Shown one piece after another: positions 11,860 to 57,455 of a stretch of DNA of 64,000 nt; the first letter of the stretch is position 1, and each line of letters starts with the position of its first letter. Origin of the DNA: Verrucomicrobiota bacterium (GTDB lineage Bacteria > Verrucomicrobiota > Verrucomicrobiia > Opitutales > UBA953); the NCBI GenBank assembly GCA_016871415.1, contig VHDL01000011.1, positions 1 through 64,000 on the forward strand, in the 5' to 3' direction. A program made the position numbers and the translations under genes. Below the pieces are notes generated by a model. That model saw nothing but the letters and a program-made list of their open reading frames with translations. It was not told the origin of the DNA and searched no databases.

Positions 11860-14760
11860 ATGCGCGTCCGCCTGCTCATTCGCCAGTCCCTCGTCTGCGC
11901 CGCCTTGCTCAGCGTCTGCGCCCAGGCGCAGGACAAGCTGACGTACGATGACCACATCCGGCCCCTCCTTGAGAACAAGTGCTTCTCGTGCCACAACCCG
12001 GACAAGAAGAAGGGCGGCCTCGAACTGACGAGCTATGCCGGCCTCGTGGACGGCGGTTCCGGCGGTGCGGTCATCGACCCGGGCAATCCTTTGGCCAGCC
12101 GTCTCTGGACCTACAGCGCCAAGAAGGAGGAGCCCTTCATGCCGCCCGAAGGGGCGCCGCTTGACGCAAAGGACCTCGTGACGCTCGCCAAATGGATCGA
12201 GGGCGGAGCCCTCCAGTCCAAGAACAGCGTCGCGCGCAAGTCGAACCGTCCCAAGGTCGAACTGGCCGTCACCGGTTCCGCAGGCAAGCCCGACGGGCCC
12301 GCCGCGCGCCCCGAGCACGTGCTGCTCGAGCCCGTGGTCGTCACCCCGCGCACCACCGCGGTCGTCGCCATGGCCGCGAGTCCTTGGACCTCGCTGCTCG
12401 CCGTCGCAGGTCAGAAGCAGGTTCTTCTTTACGACACTGACACCCGGGAGCTCGCCGGCATCCTGCCTTACCCCGAGGGCTACGCCCGTTCGCTGAAATT
12501 CAGCGCCAACGGCTCGCTGCTCATCCTCGGAGGAGGCCGCGGCGGGAAGTTCGGACACGCCGTGGTCTGGGATGTGCGCACCGGACGGCGCATTGCCGAG
12601 GCGGGCAAGGAGTTCGATCAGCTGATGTCCGCCGACATCTCCCCAGATTACCGCCGGATTGTCATCGGCACCAACACCAAGAAGGTGAAGTGCTACGACG
12701 TGACCAACGGCGAGGAGCTCTACCTTATCTCGAAGCACACCGAGTGGGTCACGGGTGCCGACTTCAGCCCCGACGGCATCCTCCTCGCCACCTCCGACCG
12801 TAACGGAAATGTCATGGTCTGGGAGGCCGACAACGGCGGTGAGTTCTTCAACCTCGGGCAGCATCAGAAGTCGGTCACGGGTCTCGCTTGGCGCGCCGAC
12901 TCCAACGTGCTCGCGAGCTGCTCCGCCGACGGCACGGTTTCGACCTGGGAGATGAAGACCGGTAAGCGCGTCGCCAACTGGACTGCGCACGGCGGCGGCG
13001 TCGAGGCCGCCTCCTTCACCCCGGACGGCCGACTGGTGACCTGCGGACAGGACGGCAAGGTCGCCCTGTGGTCCGTCGAGGGCAAGAAGCTCGGCGAGTC
13101 CCAGTCGCAAGGCGACGTGGTCTCTTCGGTGGTGGCCCTGCACGACGGCAAGTCCGCGGTTTCGGGTAACTGGCTGGGCGAGATCAAGTTCATCGACCTC
13201 ACCAACGGGCAGGCCGCCGCCCAGATTTCATCTAATCCGCCCAAGATTGCCGACCGTATCGCGGAGACCGAGCGGCGCATCGCCGAGCTCGAGGCTTCGC
13301 TCGCGGCCAATCCCGTGACCGAGCCCACGCCCGTCGAGGCCGCCGATGCCACGCTTTCCAAGGCGCGTACCGCGCGGGCCGAGCTTCCCTCCCTGCGGGA
13401 GCGCCTCGTCACGCTGAAGGCCGCCCAGTTCAACGTCGGCCTGCTCTCCGAGCAGGACCGTCTCTCCAAGATCGAAGTCGACATCGCCGACCTCGTCGCA
13501 GCACGCACGGAGAACGAGGCCGCCGTCAAGCAGGCCGAGGCCAGGCTGCCGGTCGCCCGGCAGGCTCGCGATGACGCCGCCGCTAGGATTGCTCCGCTGG
13601 AGCAGGCCGTGGCCCTCATCAAGGGCGCGCTGCCCGCCATGGAGAAGAATCTCTCCGCGCCGCGTCAGGCCGAGGCCGAGGCAGCCGGACGTCTTGAGTC
13701 GCGCACCAGGACCGTCGCCGAGGCGCAGGCCGCCCTCGAGAAGGCCGTGAACACCAATCAGATGAACGTCAACGCCGCCAAGGCGGCCGTCGAGCAGTTC
13801 AACGCGTCCATCGAGCCCGTCCGTCTGCAGCGCAACGCTGCCCGCACTGCCGCCGAGGTCGCCGCCAATAACCTGGAGACCGCCCAAAAGATCCAGGCCT
13901 CGGCGGAGGGCGTCGCCACCGCAGCAGCCGGTTTCCGCGCGAAGGCCGAGGCTACGGTCAAGGCGCAGGGCAAGGAGCTGACGGCGGCACAGTCCACCCT
14001 TAAGGCCGCCGAAGATTCCGCCGCCGCCGCGCAGTCCGAATTCGATGCGGCGCGCAGCTTCAAGGCCGTCTTCTACGTCACCTATTTTGAAAGGAAGCGG
14101 ACCTCCGCGCAGTCCTTGGAGAACGCGAAGTCCAAGGTGCTTTCCGCCCAGGCCGCGGTCGCCTCCGCGCGCGCGGTCCTCGCCGAGCGTGAGAAGGCGC
14201 TGGCCGCGGCCGACGTCGCTCACAAGGCCGAGCAGGCCAAGGTCGATGCCCTCGCCGCCGAAACCGCCAAGGTTCAGAAGGGTCATGCGGCCGCCAAGGC
14301 CGAGCTCGACCGCCTGATGGCCATCCGCGAAGGCCAGATTAAGGAGAGGCAGGCCAAGGAAGCCGCCGTCGCCAAGCTCGAGAAGGACCAGCAGGCCGGG
14401 CTCGCACCCCTGCAGGCCGCCGTCAAGGCGGCACAGGAGGGTGTGCCTCCGCTGGAGAAGGCCCTGGCCGAAGCCCGTGTGCGGCTCGCCGAAGCCTCCA
14501 AGTCCCTCATGGCCAGGCAGGCCGAGCTCGCTCAGGCCGAGAAGGCCCTCGCTGAAGGCCGTCAGGCGCTCGAAGTCGCCGCTAAGGCGCTCGTCTCCGC
14601 CGAGAAGGAAGGTCCGCAGCGTCTGAAAAATCTCGAGGAGATTGCTAAGTCCCTCGAATCCCTTCACCCGCAGGTGGAGCCGCTCAAGGCCAAGGTCGCC
14701 CAGGACCGTGAGCGATACCTCGCCCTGCTGCCGAGGAAGGAAGCCCCCAAGGCCAATTGA
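11860..14760 (+). CDS. Secreted cytochrome c-WD40 protein with long C-terminal coiled coil
   Basis: This 966-residue protein has a signal peptide (1-24), a PSD1-type cytochrome domain with CFSCH (Cys41, Cys44, His45) and the MPPEGAPL loop, and a WD40 beta-propeller (about 120-435). Propeller repeats carry ADFSPDGILLATSDRNGNV and LAWRADSNVLASCSADGTV. About 500 residues of Ala/Glu/Lys-rich heptad sequence follow, with no other domain. The cytochrome-WD40 head is a known Verrucomicrobia/Planctomycete combination. The very long coiled coil is the unusual part and could span the periplasm or mediate assembly. It is the last gene of the DUF1501 operon; the next gene starts 46 bases later. Confidence 0.88.
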   Translation: MRVRLLIRQSLVCAALLSVCAQAQDKLTYDDHIRPLLENKCFSCHNPDKKKGGLELTSYAGLVDGGSGGAVIDPGNPLASRLWTYSAKKEEPFMPPEGAPLDAKDLVTLAKWIEGGALQSKNSVARKSNRPKVELAVTGSAGKPDGPAARPEHVLLEPVVVTPRTTAVVAMAASPWTSLLAVAGQKQVLLYDTDTRELAGILPYPEGYARSLKFSANGSLLILGGGRGGKFGHAVVWDVRTGRRIAEAGKEFDQLMSADISPDYRRIVIGTNTKKVKCYDVTNGEELYLISKHTEWVTGADFSPDGILLATSDRNGNVMVWEADNGGEFFNLGQHQKSVTGLAWRADSNVLASCSADGTVSTWEMKTGKRVANWTAHGGGVEAASFTPDGRLVTCGQDGKVALWSVEGKKLGESQSQGDVVSSVVALHDGKSAVSGNWLGEIKFIDLTNGQAAAQISSNPPKIADRIAETERRIAELEASLAANPVTEPTPVEAADATLSKARTARAELPSLRERLVTLKAAQFNVGLLSEQDRLSKIEVDIADLVAARTENEAAVKQAEARLPVARQARDDAAARIAPLEQAVALIKGALPAMEKNLSAPRQAEAEAAGRLESRTRTVAEAQAALEKAVNTNQMNVNAAKAAVEQFNASIEPVRLQRNAARTAAEVAANNLETAQKIQASAEGVATAAAGFRAKAEATVKAQGKELTAAQSTLKAAEDSAAAAQSEFDAARSFKAVFYVTYFERKRTSAQSLENAKSKVLSAQAAVASARAVLAEREKALAAADVAHKAEQAKVDALAAETAKVQKGHAAAKAELDRLMAIREGQIKERQAKEAAVAKLEKDQQAGLAPLQAAVKAAQEGVPPLEKALAEARVRLAEASKSLMARQAELAQAEKALAEGRQALEVAAKALVSAEKEGPQRLKNLEEIAKSLESLHPQVEPLKAKVAQDRERYLALLPRKEAPKAN

Positions 14761-30728: not shown

Positions 30729-30810
30729 GCGGGGAGGTTCCGGTGGCCCCGACGTGGTCGGGACCATGGGGAAAGTGGGGAGGGGATGCCTTTGGTCAAG
30801 GGTGGAGATA

Positions 30811-30950
30811 GGGCTGGGGCTAGGGCTAGGGATAGGGATAGGGATAGGGACAGGGCCAGGGACAGGCGAATGCTCATCACGCTAACACCAAGATTTGCAT
30901 CCGGTTTGTATCACCAGCCCTGGCTCCGGCCCTAGCCCTAGCCCCAGCCC
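30811..30950. repeat. G-rich/C-rich inverted intergenic element (copy A)
   Basis: The G-rich arm (30811-30866) is a tandem of hexamers such as GGGCTA and GGGATA. The C-rich arm (30915-30950) is its inverted counterpart. A 21-base perfect inverted repeat pairs 30811-30831 with 30930-30950, across a spacer of about 98 bases that includes AT-richer sequence. The G arm could form a G-quadruplex. It lies between pyrB and trpA; similar elements are at 41356-41483, 48251-48321 and 58587-58685. Confidence 0.75.
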
Positions 30951-30960
30951 TCCTACCTCT

Positions 30961-47110: not shown

Positions 47111-48007
47111 ATGGCCCAGCCTCCTAAGAAGAACCTCGGCCGCGGCCTCGGCGCAATCATCGGCGCCGGCGTCTCCCGTCCCGCTCAGACCGCGCCCGCG
47201 GCGCAGCCCGCCGCGCCTTCCAATCCCTCGCTCCAGCTCGTCGAAATCGCGGTCACTCAGATCGGGCCGAATCCACGCCAGCCGCGCCGGGAGTTCGACG
47301 AGGCCTCAATCCGCGAGCTCGCGGAGTCCATCCGCTCCGAGGGCCTCCTGCAGCCCGTCGTCGTCCGCAAGGTCGCCGGGGGTTATGAGCTCATCGCCGG
47401 CGAGCGACGCCTGCGCGCCTTCCGTCATCTCGGTCAGAGGACCGTCCCCGCCCGCGTCGTCGAGGCGAGCGACGCGACCAGCGCCTTCATGGCGCTCCTC
47501 GAGAACCTGCAGCGTGACGACCTCAATCCGGTCGACGAGGCCGTCGCGGTCGCGTCCCTGATGCGTGACTTCAACCTCACCCAGGAGGCCGTGGCCGACC
47601 GTCTCGGTCGCCCCCGCGCCTCCGTCGCCAACACCGTGCGCCTGCTCTCTCTGGAGCGCGAGGTGCAGAGCTACCTGGCCAAGGGGCAGATCTCCGCTGG
47701 ACACGCCAAGGTGCTCCTCGGCGTCGAGAACAAGGCCCATCAGGTCCAGGTCGCCCGTCTCATCGTGGAGAAGGGCCTGTCCGTCCGCGCCCTCGAGGCC
47801 GAGGTGCGCAAGCTCGGCGGCGGCCGCAAGGGCGAGCGCAAGCGTGCCGCCCAGACCGTGGTCGAGGACGTCCAGAAGCGTCTCACCTCCCATTTCTCTT
47901 CCGACGTCTCCGTCGTCCGCAAGGGCGCCAAGGGCGCGATTACGATTCCCTTCACCAGCGACGACGACCTCGCCCGCCTCCTCGAGAAGATCGGCATCAG
48001 GATCTGA
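47111..48007 (+). CDS. parB: ParB chromosome-partitioning protein
   Basis: This 298-residue DNA-binding CTPase has the ParB start KNLGRGLGAIIG (about 7-18), then IGPNPRQPRREFDEASIREL, GLLQPVVVRKVAGGYELIAGERRLRAF with the GERRxRA CTP motif, and the helix-turn-helix LTQEAVADRLGRPRASVANT. It is expected to load at parS and spread. No parA is adjacent, which differs from the usual parAB operon. The preceding LysM gene is 2 bases away. Confidence 0.95.
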   Translation: MAQPPKKNLGRGLGAIIGAGVSRPAQTAPAAQPAAPSNPSLQLVEIAVTQIGPNPRQPRREFDEASIRELAESIRSEGLLQPVVVRKVAGGYELIAGERRLRAFRHLGQRTVPARVVEASDATSAFMALLENLQRDDLNPVDEAVAVASLMRDFNLTQEAVADRLGRPRASVANTVRLLSLEREVQSYLAKGQISAGHAKVLLGVENKAHQVQVARLIVEKGLSVRALEAEVRKLGGGRKGERKRAAQTVVEDVQKRLTSHFSSDVSVVRKGAKGAITIPFTSDDDLARLLEKIGIRI

Positions 48008-48015
48008 GGGGGCAA

Positions 48016-48202
48016 GTGGGCAAGTTGACACGGTGACACGGGGAACTGCATAGGGGCAGCCTCGGGTAGGGCGGCCATTGCCATGGCCGCCGTTCGCAGA
48101 GGCACGTGCGTTGCGCCGGGCCAGATCACCAACCCTACGACGTCCGTCCGCCCACGGACGTGATGGCAATCACGTCCCTACCGGCGCGGCGTGGCCGCGA
48201 GG
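48016..48202. repeat. 187-base intergenic repeat containing a BIME-like element (copy 1)
   Basis: The core 48066-48181 holds two hairpins in inverted order. The left reads GTAG then GGCGGCCAT-TGCC-ATGGCCGCC (48070-48091, perfect). The right, read on the minus strand, is GTAG then GGACGTGAT-TGCC-ATCACGTCC (48156-48177, perfect), with CTAC at 48178-48181 as the outer foot. Both have the same GTAG foot and TGCC loop but different stems. Nearly the same unit occurs at 54172-54360. Together with copy C of the G/C element it fills the 335-base gap between parB and purH; no gene is seen there. Confidence 0.85.
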
Positions 48203-48250
48203 GAGAGTACGCTTCTACGGCGATACGTGGGCAAGGGGTTCTGCGACAGT

Positions 48251-48321
48251 CAGGGGCAGGCCTAAGGCATGGAGACAAAAACAGGTGTTGAAATCTTCTG
48301 CCCCTGTCCCTGCCCCTGTCC
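48251..48321. repeat. G-rich/C-rich inverted intergenic element (copy C)
   Basis: CAGGGGCAG at 48251-48259 pairs with CTGCCCCTG at 48298-48306. The C arm is two tandem copies of CTGCCCCTGTCC (48298-48309, 48310-48321), so it is longer than the G arm. The loop is A-rich. It lies just after the BIME copy, downstream of purH on the minus strand. Confidence 0.65.
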
Positions 48322-48342
48322 CTTTGTTTCCCTCAGTTTTCC

Positions 48343-49884
48343 TCAGTGCTTAAAGTGCCTCATTCCCGTGAACACCATCGCCATGCCGCGCGCGTCGGCG
48401 GCGGCGATCACATCGGCGTCCTTGACCGAGCCTCCGGGCTGGATGGCGCAGGTCGCGCCGGCGTCGGCGGCGGCCAGGAGGCCGTCCGGGAAGGGGAAGA
48501 AGGCGTCGGAGCAGACGGCTGAGCCCGCCAGGGGCAGCTTGGCCTCACCGGCCTTCCAGACCGCGATGCGGGAGGAGTCGACGCGGGACATCTGTCCGGC
48601 GCCCACGCCGAGCGTGCGCTCCTTGCCGGCGTAGACGATGGCGTTGGACTTCACGTGGCGCACCACGCGCCAGCCGAAGAGCATCGAGGCCAGCTCGTCC
48701 GGCGTGGGCTGGCGCTTCGTGACCACCTTGAAGTCGCGCGGGTTGACCGGCTTCTGGTCGCGGTCTTGCACGAGCACGCCGCCGATCACCGCGCGCACCT
48801 CGCGCAGCGTGTCGGCGCGCAGGCCCACCTTCGCGCGCATGAGGCGCAGGTTCTTCTTCTTACCGAAGATCGCCAGCGCGTCGGCGTCGAACTCCGGCGC
48901 GATGATGACCTCGGAGAAGGTCTCGGCGATGGCCTCGGCGAGGCCGCGGTCGACCGTGCGGTTGGCCACGATGATGCCGCCGAAGGGCGCTTGGCGGTCC
49001 GTCTCGAAGGCCTTGTGCCAGGCCTCGAGCAGCGTGTCTCCCGAAGCGGCCCCGCAGGGGTTGGTGTGCTTGAGGATGCAGACCGTGGGTCGCTCGAACT
49101 CGCCGATCAGGTAGGTCGCCGCCGTGATGTCCAGGATGTTGTTGTAGCTGAGCTCCTTGCCCTGGAGTTGGTCGAAGGTCTCGTGGAACGAGCCGTAGAG
49201 CGCGGCCTGTTGGTGGGGATTCTCCCCGTATCGCAGGCGCTGCGCGAGGGGCAGGGTGGAGGTGAAGCGGGAGGGCAGGCCCAGCACGTTACCCTCGCCG
49301 GGCTGCGACTGCGACTCGAGGTAGTTGGCGATCGCGGCGTCGTAGGCCGAGGTGCGCTGGAAGACCTTGAGGGCGAGCTCACGGCGGAGTTCCGCAAGGG
49401 CGTCGGGGTCCTTTATCGCGGCGAGCACGCGCGGGTAGTCGGCCGGGTCGGTGACGACGGAGACCGCGGCGTGGTTCTTGGCCGCGCTGCGGAGCATGGA
49501 GGGGCCGCCGATGTCGATGTTCTCGATTGCGTCCTCGAAGGAGCAGCCGGGCTTGGCGACGGTGGCCTCAAAGGGGTAGAGGTTCACCACGACGAGGTCG
49601 ATGAGGTCGATGCCGTGGCGCTTGGCCTGCTCGAGGTGCTCGTGCGAATCGCGACGGCAGAGGAGTCCGCCGTGCACCTTCGGGTGCAGGGTCTTGACGC
49701 GTCCCTCCATGATCTCAGGGAAGCCCGTGTGCTCGCCGACGTCGGTGACCGGCAGTCCGGCGTCGCGCAGGGCCTTGGCGGTGCCGCCGGTCGAGAGCAG
49801 CCGGTAGCCGTGCTCCTTCACGAGGGCTTGGGCGAAGGGCAGGAGGCCGGTCTTGTCGCTGACGGAGAGGAGGGCGAGAGGCAT
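48343..49884 (-). CDS. purH: Bifunctional AICAR transformylase / IMP cyclohydrolase
   Basis: This 513-residue enzyme does the last two steps of purine synthesis. The IMP cyclohydrolase (MGS-like) domain has [28 protein letters not shown] and [16 protein letters not shown], and the AICAR transformylase domain has [41 protein letters not shown] and [11 protein letters not shown]. The ATG at 49884 starts the usual [13 protein letters not shown]; a longer frame to 49929 is ignored. It is divergent from fabD. Confidence 0.97.
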
Positions 49885-52788: not shown

Positions 52789-54144
52789 ATGGGCTTCTTC
52801 GAGGACTACCGCCGCCGGCGTCAGCAGCGCAAGATTGCGAGGGCGCTGTTCAAGATGGTCCGCGCCATCCGTCTCTACCGCGGCGACGTGCTCTCGGCGC
52901 AGGAACTTGGAGTCCTGCGGGCCGATGAGGAGCGTCTCGCCCGGGAGCTCCAGCTGAAGCCCCGGCCCGACATCGAATCGGTGGAGTCCGCCATCATGGA
53001 CCTGCACCGGACGATGGTGCGCATCGGGGGCAAGGTCTACCCCGTCAGCGCAACGTCCGACTTCGTGGACATGGTGGTCATGGCCGCGATTATCGCTGGC
53101 GGCATCCGCAGCTTCTTCTTCCAGCCGTTCAAGATTCCCACGAACTCGATGTGGCCGACCTACAACGGCATGACGGCCGAGGTGCGCGCCCCCGGAGAGG
53201 CCGTGCCCGGCCCCGCCATGCGCGCCTTCAACGTCCTGCAGTGGACCTGGACGCACGCGGTGCCCGCCCCGGCCGAGGGCGAGGTGCTTATCCCGCTGCA
53301 GAGGTCCGACTACGGAAGGACCGCTGAGTATTCCATGGCGCAGAAGGGGAGCGCCCGCAATTCGGGCCTTTTCGGCACGGGTCTCTTCGGCGGACGTGAT
53401 GACACCTACGTGCTGCTGGTCGGCGACACGCCGCAGTCCATCACGGTGCCGGGTGAATTCGGCTTCGAGGGCGTGCTACTCCGCACGTTCTTCCCGAAGG
53501 AGGCCGCGCTCACGCCGCGTCGGCAGGACGTGGACCGCTGGACGGCGGTCTTCGAGCGCGCCCGTAAGGAGAATCTGATCGTCAACGGCCCGAGGGGTGA
53601 GGCGCTGCGCACCGGGGTTTACCTGAAGAAGGGGCAGCCGTTGCTCAACTTCGACATCAAGACGGGCGACTTCCTGTTCGTGGACCGGGTGTCCTACCAT
53701 TTCCGCAACCCGGTCCGGGGCGACACGTTCGTGTTCCAGACGGGCAACATCCCCGGCCTGGCCGACGGCCTGGGGCGGCCTTCCCAGAGCTATTACGTGA
53801 AACGGGTCGGCGGCACGCCGGGCGACCGCATCCGCGTCGACGCCGAAGGGCGCCTGCACGTGAACGGGGTGGTGGCGACCACGCCCGAGCCGGTCGCGCT
53901 CAACAATCGTCCGGCCGTGGACAAGGGCTATTACGGATTCCTGCCCTCGGCCGGCGGCTATCAGTATGCAATCCCGCTGGATCGCGAGCACACGGTCTCG
54001 TCGGGCATGTATTACGCCTTGGGTGACAACTCCGCCAGCAGCTTCGACTCGCGCGGCTGGGGCGAGGTGCCCGCCCGTGACGTGGTTGGGCCGCCCTTCC
54101 TCATCCTGCATCCGCTCAGTCATCGCTGGGGTCTGGCGAAGTAG
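52789..54144 (+). CDS. lepB: Signal peptidase I
   Basis: This 451-residue membrane protease is longer than the E. coli enzyme. A cytoplasmic N-terminal part of about 90 residues precedes a membrane segment (DMVVMAAIIAGGIRSFFF) and the catalytic Ser120 in IPTNSMWPT. The Lys is in YYVKRVGGTPGD and the C-terminal block is ALGDNSASSFDSRGWG. A large insert (about 130-300) lies between the Ser and Lys boxes. It removes signal peptides from the many secreted proteins. It forms a cluster with lepA. Confidence 0.95.
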   Translation: MGFFEDYRRRRQQRKIARALFKMVRAIRLYRGDVLSAQELGVLRADEERLARELQLKPRPDIESVESAIMDLHRTMVRIGGKVYPVSATSDFVDMVVMAAIIAGGIRSFFFQPFKIPTNSMWPTYNGMTAEVRAPGEAVPGPAMRAFNVLQWTWTHAVPAPAEGEVLIPLQRSDYGRTAEYSMAQKGSARNSGLFGTGLFGGRDDTYVLLVGDTPQSITVPGEFGFEGVLLRTFFPKEAALTPRRQDVDRWTAVFERARKENLIVNGPRGEALRTGVYLKKGQPLLNFDIKTGDFLFVDRVSYHFRNPVRGDTFVFQTGNIPGLADGLGRPSQSYYVKRVGGTPGDRIRVDAEGRLHVNGVVATTPEPVALNNRPAVDKGYYGFLPSAGGYQYAIPLDREHTVSSGMYYALGDNSASSFDSRGWGEVPARDVVGPPFLILHPLSHRWGLAK

Positions 54145-54171
54145 TGGGCGGACGCTGTCCGCTCAGGGCAC

Positions 54172-54360
54172 GTGGGCAAGTTGACACGGGGACACGGGGA
54201 GAGGCGCAGAAGCTGTCCTGGGTAGGGCGGACATTGCCATGGCCGCCGTTCGCCGACGCACGTGCGTGGCGCCGGGCTAGGTCACCGACCATTCCAAGCT
54301 CGATCCGCCCACGGACGTGATGGCAATCACGTCCCTACCGGCGCGGCGTGGACGCGTGGG
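54172..54360. repeat. 189-base intergenic repeat containing a BIME-like element (copy 2)
   Basis: The core 54222-54338 repeats copy 1: GTAG at 54222-54225, stem GGCGGACAT/ATGGCCGCC with one mismatch, and a perfect right hairpin GGACGTGAT-GGCA-ATCACGTCC (54313-54334) with CTAC at 54335-54338. Flanks on both sides also match copy 1 (GGGCAAGTTGACACGG before, CCGGCGCGGCGTGG after). It lies between lepB and menD. Confidence 0.85.
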
Positions 54361-54371
54361 GGCGATGCGGC

Positions 54372-56090
54372 TCAAGCCGTACGCTTGCGGAAAGACCTGA
54401 GGCGCCAGGCGGCGTCGGCCTCGCGGTCGGTGCGCAGTTCGATCACGCGCACGCCCTTGCCGCGGACTTCGAGGAGCCGGCGGAAGGAGGCCCAGCCTTC
54501 GGCCAGGTCGTGACGCACGCGGTGCGCGGCGCACAGGCGTCCGAGGTCGGTGGCCTGCGGGGTGCCCCAGAGCTGCTCGAAGCGGGCGTGGCCGGCCACG
54601 GGCAGGTGGTTGAAGATGCCGCCGCCCTGGTTGTTGATCACGACGACGGTGAGGTCGCCCGGGTGACCGTAGGCCGAGAGCAGCGCGTTGGAGTCGTGCA
54701 GGAAGGCGAGGTCGCCGCAAAGCAGCACGGTGCGTCGGCCGTCGAGCGAGGCGCCCAGCGCGGTCGACACGGTGCCGTCGATGCCGTTGGCGCCGCGGTT
54801 GGAGAGAATCTCGGGGCCGGGACCGGAGGGATGGTAGAACCACTCGAGGTCGCGGATGGGCATGCTGCTGCCGACGAAAAGACGATCGTGCATCCCGAGC
54901 GCCTGGTCGAGCCGGCTGATGATGCCGCCCTCGAAGAGGCGTTCGCCGGCGACGAGCTTGTCGAGCCGGGTGCGCGCGGTGCGCTGGCGCTTCCTCCAGC
55001 TCGTGAGGTAGGCGCTCTTCTGCTCGGTCAGCTTGATGCCCGTGGAGGCGATGGCCCCGTCGATTCGGCTCCAGCGCGCATGCGTCGGGTCGGTGTTCTC
55101 GCCGGGACGGCCGATGAGCAGCGTCGGGGCGTCGGCTTTCTCCAGCCAGGTGCGCAGGGCCTTGCTCGTGGGCAGGGGGCCGATGACGACGACCGCCTCG
55201 GGGGCGAGCGCCCGGGCCTCGCCGGAGTCGCGCAGGATGAGGTCGTAGGCGGAGATCAGGCGTCCGCTCGAGGCGAGGTCGCCGCGGAGCGTGCTGGCGC
55301 CGTCGGCCAGGATCGGCCATCCGGTGAAGAGCGAGAGCTCGAGCAGGGCCTGGGCGGAATCATCGCGGTCCTCGAAATGCTGGGGGCCGGCCACGATGAC
55401 GCCGCGCGGTGTCTTGGGCAGCGCCTCGGCGACCGAGAAGGAGGTGACATAGGAATGGACGACGGGGCAGGCGGGCAGGTCGGTGAAACTTTCGAGATCA
55501 AAGCCGACGGGCAGCTTGAAGCCCGGCTCGGCCTCCGAGGGGGTCAGGGGGTCGCGGAAGGGGAGGTTGAGGTGCACGGGCCCGGCGAGCGGACCCTGCG
55601 AACGCTGCCAGGCGTCCACCAGTGTCTGCCGCCAGTGGCGCAGAAGTCTCGGGCTGGTGCTGGGCGCGGCGGCCTCGGTGGTCCAGACGGGATAGCTGCC
55701 GTAGAGGTCGTTCTGGCGGATGGTCTGCCCGGAGTGGCATTCCCGCAGCTCGGCCGGGCGGTCCGCTGAGAGAACGAGCAACGGCGTGGCCGACATGCGC
55801 GCCTCGATCACCGCCGGCAGGTAGTTGGCGACCGCCGTGCCGGAAGTGCAGAGCAGGGCGGCGGGGCGGTGGGTCGCCTTGGCGATGCCCAGCGCGATGA
55901 AGCCGGCCGAGCGTTCGTCCAGGGCCACGGTCACCTGGACACCCGCTTCTTCCGCGAACGCCGCGGCCATGGGGGTCGAGCGCGAGCCGGGTGAGATCAC
56001 CACGTGGGTGAGGCCCCGTCGACGCAGGGTGCGCACGCCAACGGCCGCCCAGAGGGTGTTGGTGTTGACCGGTCGGAAGGCTTTCGCCAT
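54372..56090 (-). CDS. menD: 2-succinyl-5-enolpyruvyl-6-hydroxy-3-cyclohexene-1-carboxylate synthase
   Basis: This 572-residue thiamine-diphosphate enzyme performs the first committed step of menaquinone synthesis. It has HVVISPGSRSTPM, LDERSAGFIALGIAKAT, CTSGTAVANYLPAVIEA, SADRPAELRECHSGQTIRQ, SNRGANGIDGTVSTALGA and the TPP motif region GDLAFLHDSNALL with VVINNQGGGIF. The ATG at 56090 is chosen; a longer frame to 56342 covers a divergent gene. It ends near BIME copy 2. Confidence 0.96.
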   Translation of the reverse strand: MAKAFRPVNTNTLWAAVGVRTLRRRGLTHVVISPGSRSTPMAAAFAEEAGVQVTVALDERSAGFIALGIAKATHRPAALLCTSGTAVANYLPAVIEARMSATPLLVLSADRPAELRECHSGQTIRQNDLYGSYPVWTTEAAAPSTSPRLLRHWRQTLVDAWQRSQGPLAGPVHLNLPFRDPLTPSEAEPGFKLPVGFDLESFTDLPACPVVHSYVTSFSVAEALPKTPRGVIVAGPQHFEDRDDSAQALLELSLFTGWPILADGASTLRGDLASSGRLISAYDLILRDSGEARALAPEAVVVIGPLPTSKALRTWLEKADAPTLLIGRPGENTDPTHARWSRIDGAIASTGIKLTEQKSAYLTSWRKRQRTARTRLDKLVAGERLFEGGIISRLDQALGMHDRLFVGSSMPIRDLEWFYHPSGPGPEILSNRGANGIDGTVSTALGASLDGRRTVLLCGDLAFLHDSNALLSAYGHPGDLTVVVINNQGGGIFNHLPVAGHARFEQLWGTPQATDLGRLCAAHRVRHDLAEGWASFRRLLEVRGKGVRVIELRTDREADAAWRLRSFRKRTA

Positions 56091-56172: not shown

Positions 56173-56523
56173 ATGCCTCCCGTGGAGCTCCTCGTCCATC
56201 TGGCGCCCCTTCTGGCGGCGATCACGTTCGCCGTCCTGCTCACCTGGGCGGTGTGCGCCGGGATGTCCTTCGCGGTCGACGACGCGCATGTGCGGGTGCT
56301 CATGTACGGTCGGTCGGTCCGCAAGGTCCCGCTGGCCGACATCGAATGGGCCGACCGCCGCTGGGATTTCTGGAACGAGCACTACGCGGTCTCGCTCCGG
56401 CCCTCCCGCGTGGTGCGTCTGCGCCGGCGGACGGGCCTCTTCCGCAGCTTCATCATCACCCCGCCGGATGCCGATGGTTTCATCGGCCGTCTGCGTGAGC
56501 GCGGCGTCACGATTCGACCATGA
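56173..56523 (+). CDS. Small membrane protein with PH-like C-terminal domain
   Basis: This 116-residue protein has one or two N-terminal membrane segments (VHLAPLLAAITFAVLLTWAV) and a short beta-rich part (VRVLMYGRSVRKVPLADIEW and RPSRVVRLRRRTGLFRSFII) resembling bacterial PH domains. The family is unknown. Its stop overlaps the next start by 4 bases (ATGA), so it is co-translated with the epimerase-like lipoprotein. It is divergent from menD, with 82 bases between. Confidence 0.65.
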   Translation: MPPVELLVHLAPLLAAITFAVLLTWAVCAGMSFAVDDAHVRVLMYGRSVRKVPLADIEWADRRWDFWNEHYAVSLRPSRVVRLRRRTGLFRSFIITPPDADGFIGRLRERGVTIRP

Positions 56524-57371
56524 GACTCCTCCTGCTTTCGCTGACCTGCGGCCTCTGCGGCTGCGCCTCTTCCGCACCGGAAGGGCCTGAGTTCTTCGCC
56601 ATGGACACCGCGGCGCGTCTGGCGCCGGCCGAGAACGCCGCGCTGCTCGCTGAGCTCGGCTACGCGGGCTTGGGCGGTCGGCCTTCCTCGGCCCGGGCCC
56701 ACGCCGAGGCCCTCCGTGCACGCGGGCTCAGGTTCTACAACGCCTACCACGTGGCCCGTTTCGATGCGCGGGATTCCGCGTTGCCCGCCGACCTCACCCG
56801 CGCGGTCGATGACCTCGCCGGACTCGACGCCGTGCTCTGGTTCGCGATCCAGAGGGTCGAACTCGGCGAGGGCTCCGCTTCGCGTCCCGTGGAGCGGGCG
56901 CGTGAGGCCGTCGTGGACGCCACGTTGCGCCGTCTGCTTGATTACGCCGGACCTCGGAAGGTCCGGATCTCGCTCTACCCGCATGCCGGTTTCTGGGGCG
57001 ACCGGTTTGAGACCTGCCTGCGCGCCGCTGAGCGCATCAACGACCCCCGTCTCACCGTCACCTTCAATCTCTGCCATTGGCTCAAGGTCGACGGAGGACA
57101 GGCCGATCCTCTGCCGCTCATCCGTCGGGCCCTGCCCAGGCTGGAGTTCATCACCATCAACGGCACCGACGCCGGCGACACCGCGAAGATGGGCTGGGAC
57201 CGGCTCATCCAGCCTATCGGACGAGGTTCCTATGACGTGAAGGCTTTCGTTTCGGGCGTGCGCGCGGCAGGCTATCGCGGCCCCTTCGGCTTCCAGGGCT
57301 TCGGCATCAAGATGGAGCCTGTGGCGCTGCTCAAGGAGGCGATGGTCGGGTGGAGAGAAATCGTGAAGTAG
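56520..57371 (+). CDS. Sugar phosphate isomerase/epimerase-like lipoprotein
   Basis: This 283-residue protein has a lipoprotein signal (MRLLLLSLTCGLCGC) and a xylose-isomerase-like TIM barrel with KVRISLYPHAGFWG, RLTVTFNLCHWLKVDGG and FITINGTDAG near the ends of the strands. Metal-binding His and Glu residues are partly recognisable; the activity is unknown. Its TAG stop is part of the GTAG foot of a degenerate REP hairpin at 57368. Confidence 0.72.
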   Translation: MRLLLLSLTCGLCGCASSAPEGPEFFAMDTAARLAPAENAALLAELGYAGLGGRPSSARAHAEALRARGLRFYNAYHVARFDARDSALPADLTRAVDDLAGLDAVLWFAIQRVELGEGSASRPVERAREAVVDATLRRLLDYAGPRKVRISLYPHAGFWGDRFETCLRAAERINDPRLTVTFNLCHWLKVDGGQADPLPLIRRALPRLEFITINGTDAGDTAKMGWDRLIQPIGRGSYDVKAFVSGVRAAGYRGPFGFQGFGIKMEPVALLKEAMVGWREIVK

Positions 57372-57392
57372 GGACGTGATTGCCATCACCTC
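57368..57392 (-). repeat. Degenerate REP hairpin (copy 3, half element)
   Basis: GTAG at 57368-57371 is followed by GGACGTGAT (57372-57380), TGCC and ATCACCTC, matching the right hairpin of the BIME copies apart from the last bases of the stem. Sequence beyond it (to about 57430) resembles the inner part of copy 1 in reverse. Only one hairpin is left. Confidence 0.7.
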
Positions 57393-57455
57393 TGCGGGTG
57401 GACGTCATCCGGCCGGTGACCTGACCTGGCGCAGCGAAGAGACCTTGTCGCACGC

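Follow-up and report, generated by a model that had tools for sequence, protein, structure and literature searches.

A dispersed pair of GTAG hairpins, very probably a REPIN, in lake Verrucomicrobiota and its putative RAYT in sister species

The element and its copies

The window (the whole 64,000-nucleotide stretch analysed here) belongs to a Verrucomicrobiota genome of 2.21 Mb in 60 contigs, with an assembly that is 99.5% complete (G000). Between its convergent parB-like (end 48007) and purH-like (end 48343, minus strand) genes lie two hairpins, each with a perfect 9-bp stem and a TGCC loop; their GTAG feet face outwards and their stem sequences are unlike (Table 1). Each is a short palindrome with an unpaired GTAG at one end, which is the anatomy of a GTAG REP. 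The initial annotation had described the two hairpins, their shared foot and loop and their different stems correctly to the base, in agreement with both the sequence and ssDNA folding, which returned only these two structures (-30.6 kcal/mol, z -2.97).

Table 1 Features of the element at 48065-48182 and related hairpins in the window
Feature	Position	Strand	Basis
Whole REPIN, GGTAG...CTACC, ~118 bp: two inward-reading REPs, 64-bp spacer	48065..48182	+	Shared ends of aligned copies; absent from syntenic relative
Left REP: GTAG foot (48066-48069), 9-bp stem GGCGGCCAT (48070-48078)/ATGGCCGCC (48083-48091), TGCC loop (48079-48082)	48066..48091	+	Sequence, ssDNA fold
Spacer: variable middle, conserved first ~6 and last ~15 bases (GTTCGC ... 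GTCCGTCCGCCCAC)	48092..48155	+	Conservation profile of full-length copies
Right REP: GTAG foot (48181-48178), then GGACGTGAT-TGCC-ATCACGTCC (48177-48156), 9-bp stem, TGCC loop	48156..48181	-	Sequence, ssDNA fold, genome pattern counts
Second full-length copy, between convergent lepB-like and menD-like genes; one left-stem mismatch	54222..54338	+	89% identity over 137 bases
Half copy: right REP and partial spacer; TAG is the stop codon of upstream gene 56520-57371	57368..57436	-	Similarity, pattern; no REP there in syntenic relative
GTAG hairpin of other stem class (TGGGCGGAC-GCT-GTCCGCTCA), 3' end of lepB-like gene; TAG is the stop; possibly other-class REP	54141..54167	+	Hairpin scan

The left and right hairpins are the two ends of a single dispersed 118-bp element. 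Aligned copies from the same genome share the ends GGTAGGG...CCCTACC and are mostly 118-121 bp long. Copy numbers in this genome rest on genome searches by DNA similarity and by exact-hairpin patterns: the nucleotide search gave ~15 near-full-length and ~10 partial copies, eleven copies are in essence complete, and the right hairpin with its foot had 20 matches (<=2 mismatches; 17 exact) vs 0 for a reversed control pattern. The initial annotation had suggested such a search for GTAG-hairpin units, and the dispersed copies bear out its REP/BIME reading. The copies are many and mainly extragenic, with all three in the window intergenic; those at 54222-54338 and 57368-57436 had escaped the initial annotation. 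A degenerate pattern, GTAGGGN7TTGCCATN7CC (2 mismatches, same genome), was dropped, as its 5 matches were no better than its reversed control; these matches miss the REPIN, despite two copies inside the window.

The genome also holds a second REP class with a CTGACC stem and a CCCT loop (18 matches vs 0 for the control). At C19:20010-29278 (L087) of this genome, five REPIN copies or parts lie within 9 kb, with a CCCT-class REP before three of them, in what looks like a tandem duplication of a REP-containing unit.

Across the genus, the right hairpin with its foot is present in 30 of 55 genomes, with a maximum of 61 copies in one of them (G050) and no control match anywhere. Among exact matches in public records, those with names were Opitutia/Opitutales MAGs, mostly from lakes as judged by isolate names, and 'Opitutae bacterium BS6'; one matching record is a Verrucomicrobiota placed in class Opitutia by NCBI.

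Hairpin covariation and site occupancy

We compared 43 distinct hairpins of the TGCC class with 500 shuffles. Standard pairs filled 95.6% of pair cells (77.6% shuffled), both-side changes in stem pairs numbered 67 (24.6 shuffled) and the covariation score was 0.428 (0.124 shuffled); in each case, 0/500 shuffles reached the observed value. The signal was lost when the partner strand was slid as a control. Stem pairs 3, 4, 6 and 7 vary on both sides, and the basal GG-CC pairs are invariant. The earlier statement that the stems fully covary is upheld in both senses, since the differences between the two ends and the changes within an end both keep pairing. Within genomes, copies share 92-98% identity in the hairpins vs 66-70% in the spacers, although the spacer bases adjoining each hairpin are also conserved. 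Two inverted REPs forming a conserved unit, with hairpins kept over spacer, is the pattern of a REPIN.

The nearest relative that has the region (G005) matches the final 20 kb of the window co-linearly, with 82-91% identity. The two gaps that hold the full REPINs interrupt this alignment (48008-48341 and 54143-54396); in their place G005 has ~50 bp and no REP, and it also lacks a REP at the site of the half copy. These empty sites give no clean base-exact junctions because the spacers are short and the neighbouring repeat arrays are missing too. Elsewhere among the relatives that were compared, the gap between parB and purH is free of REPs or carries REPINs whose stems and loops differ (e.g., L188, L201, L199/L211), so this site has been filled independently.

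RAYT genes across the genus

The initial annotation had supposed that a transposase would act on the element from elsewhere. This was not borne out in the 99.5%-complete assembly, where Pfam Y1_Tnp, a close RAYT protein and a 12-sequence RAYT profile (E up to 10) all failed to reveal a RAYT; its CCCT-loop class is likewise without its RAYT. The search for a REP-associated tyrosine transposase did succeed beyond this genome, with weak Pfam Y1_Tnp matches in sister species and RAYT-like genes detected by the 12-sequence profile in 35 of the 55 genus genomes. The RAYTs of the sister species are ~147 aa long, with an invariant HxH and a C-terminal Y..NPxR motif, and carry both the Y1/HUH motifs and the family profile. 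They match NCBIfam REP_Tyr_transpos at E 3e-15 to 2e-24, scores that for all three RAYTs scanned from the sub-clade lie below the NCBIfam cut-off (and for L122 and L255 also below the Pfam cut-off). Their nearest solved structure is E. coli TnpAREP 4er8 (E 4.6e-18).

Two of these genes connect the transposase with the element. One (L122, in G050, JAPLTV010000114.1) has the exact hairpin pair of the window on either flank. The other (L255, in G061) is flanked in the same way, with a right stem of GGATGTGAT/ATCACATCC that represents a compensated change. The RAYT gene with the same REP on its flanks was found in these sister species and not in the window's own genome, and the genes are, judged from sequence, the cognate RAYT of the window element. 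The GTAG foot as a mark and the link to a RAYT, both put forward in the initial annotation, hold here. Copy number above the control and RAYT-like genes at the genus level are also the reverse of what it had named as evidence against its reading, namely a chance-level copy number and no RAYT-like gene.

A further RAYT in the first of these genomes (L129, G050:C107, ~12145-12560) is broken by a stop or frameshift; upstream of it lies the window REPIN, and downstream of it one of the TGC class. This gene is a decaying RAYT in a genome that also has an open-frame RAYT of the TGCC class.

Among 54 RAYT stretches from this genus, a number in which a single broken gene is entered twice, 52 have GTAG hairpins at <=260 bp from the RAYT, usually on both sides. 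The sole same-genus RAYTs with no GTAG hairpins in the flanking 260 bp on either side (L105 in G007 and L253 in G056) form a clade of their own and may use another end type, e.g., long TIRs. When mapped on the RAYT tree, the loop class of the flanking REPs required 17 changes (minimum 13) vs 40.1 in shuffled data, with 0/200 shuffles reaching the observed value; class labels were assigned from the nearest hairpins, and those of L244, L102 and L109 are artefacts of this rule that only weaken the fit. REP stem and loop class follows the RAYT tree, on which the TGCC RAYT pair is a fully supported clade adjoining the TGC and TACC classes. Several genomes (G012, G042 and G008) are rich in the TGCC class, yet no RAYT of that class was found in these fragmented MAGs.

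REPIN reading, alternatives and neighbouring repeats

We consider that the element is very probably a REPIN, that is, a non-autonomous unit mobilised as a single strand and made of two head-to-head GTAG REP hairpins. This is directly supported by its anatomy, dispersal, covariation and empty sites, by the element-bracketed RAYT in a sister species and by the agreement of REP class with RAYT phylogeny. REPINs of this kind were described in 2010-2013, Opitutus terrae included (PMC3733652, PMC3116915, PMC2817692), and the 2013 survey (PMC3733652) was the only relevant item that we found on REPINs in Opitutus or Verrucomicrobia. The element is a new sub-family, from uncultured lake Verrucomicrobiota, of this long-known kind. 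Like the GTAG heterodimers of Di Nocera 2013 (PMC3733652), it has a GTAG foot, a stem of 6-9 bp and a loop of 2-4 nt; its REPs pair head to head at a distance of 20-100 bp, with unlike stems and with spacer ends that are conserved; and it occupies intergenic positions 3' of genes, where the TAG of the foot can serve as stop codon of the upstream gene. Its TGCC loop and both stems are apparent differences from those heterodimers. As in other REPIN/RAYT systems (PMC3116915, PMC2817692), the inverted REP pair is the replicative or mobile unit (PMC3116915), the RAYT lies between the same REPs and there is one RAYT per REP class; unlike in those systems, searches of the window's own genome gave no RAYT, and a single genus has about a dozen RAYT classes. 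The perfect stem, short loop and GTAG also resemble group 3 TnpAREP systems (Stenotrophomonas, Marinomonas; PMC8266576), and the RAYTs of the genus have the same HUH fold family and the same Tyr motif as E. coli TnpAREP 4er8.

By analogy with these systems, a mechanism can be proposed. In the single-stranded state (lagging-strand template or transcription), each end would fold into its 9-bp hairpin. The cognate RAYT, which is an HUH-type endonuclease of the Y1 kind, would bind the hairpins as a dimer through stem and loop, read the unpaired GTAG as a guide, cut beside the element and join the strand elsewhere. Copies would build up in this way, mostly directly downstream of genes or between convergent genes, and selection for recognition by the RAYT would maintain the foot, the loop and the pairing, leaving the stem sequence to drift along with the RAYT. 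TnpAREP enzymes bind and cleave REPs in single-stranded form, loop and stem both contribute to specificity, and GTAG guides the choice of the CT cleavage site, as shown in one system and proposed in others (PMC8266576); for the RAYTs of this genus, unlike for those enzymes, binding and cleavage are proposed by analogy.

Since the searches gave no RAYT for the genome of the window, its REPIN family has probably stopped moving or moves only rarely. Its elements are either orphans whose RAYT was lost, or that gene may sit in a gap between the 60 contigs. A hidden RAYT is realistic, since REPs occupy contig ends (e.g., C39 ends 14 bases past a right REP, and C29 starts ~40 bases before a REP). Loss of the RAYT is known in E. 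coli strains (PMC3733652), and a RAYT in the same genome is usual for REPINs and not strictly defining, as REPtron loss has been reported. It is unlikely that the REPINs, here and elsewhere in the genus, instead persist without their own RAYT as resident structural elements independent of a transposase, whose hairpins some host function, or a RAYT from a different class working in trans, maintains.

A role at the RNA level is very unlikely. It would make the element a pair of 3'-end hairpins, acting as a bidirectional terminator or mRNA 3'-end stabiliser, that spread somehow and was retained for this role. The three window copies all lie between convergent genes (parB/purH, lepB/menD and after 57371), it is known that REPs are transcribed and occur downstream of genes (PMC3733652), and hairpins are more conserved than spacers, also in genomes where no RAYT was detected. 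However, a terminator/promoter scan came up empty, with neither a T-run nor a terminator-like site, so the hairpin-then-T-run order of an intrinsic terminator is not seen, and Rfam gave no family above threshold and one sub-threshold chance match only. Every REP class also tracks a RAYT, and a conserved role at the site is opposed by the orthologous gaps of relatives, which hold other REPs or none.

Being short and dispersed with inverted ends (GGTAGGG...CCCTACC), the element could also be taken for a MITE, one derived from a classical DDE transposon and marked by terminal inverted repeats (TIRs) and target-site duplications. Such an origin appears extremely improbable, as the common inverted-terminal sequence is just 7 bp, conserved subterminal hairpins with unlike stems are not TIRs, visual inspection of the regions flanking the aligned copies showed no target duplication, and it is a RAYT that the element brackets. 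Chance hairpins or an assembly artefact can hardly be entertained at all. The genome is GC-rich, and the 10 GTAG hairpins within the window, only ~3x the mean of all tetramers, are weak evidence by themselves; against this stand the 20 copies in the genome vs none for the control, and 29 independent genomes that carry this element too.

As a single element, the REPIN is ordinary, and the genus-level set is the useful by-product. Within a single genus of uncultured freshwater Opitutia, it brings together about a dozen RAYT clades, and every clade is paired with a REP stem and loop of its own. These matched RAYT-REP pairs bear on how a Y1 transposase recognises a folded single strand by its stem and loop, and the set also bears on REPIN survival after transposase loss. 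For annotators, we note that REPINs break MAG contigs and can conceal a RAYT.

The parB-purH gap itself (window 48005-48345; L186-L211 in the comparison) contains, in most relatives, a long imperfect inverted repeat, with a terminator or a REPIN occupying its loop. The arms are degenerate short-period arrays of 6-8 bp words, and the word varies by species (GCGGTTG/GCGGTTA, GGGGATT/GGGGATA, GAGTATC/GAGTATT, GTGGGCA/AGTTGACA). These arrays resemble the heptamer arrays (STRRs) of cyanobacteria. A similar array hairpin lies at window 30795-30960, between same-strand trpA-like and pyrB-like genes, where GGGCTAGGGATAGGGATAGGGACAGGG faces GGCCCTAGCCCTAGCCCCAGCCCT (RNA fold -84 kcal/mol, z -4.05). Between two relatives (L199 in G017 and L211 in G019), the segment enclosed by inverted GGGGATGG-type arms in the parB-purH gap is in opposite orientation; the REPIN and its non-REP flanks are inverted together, as if the arms had mediated the inversion.
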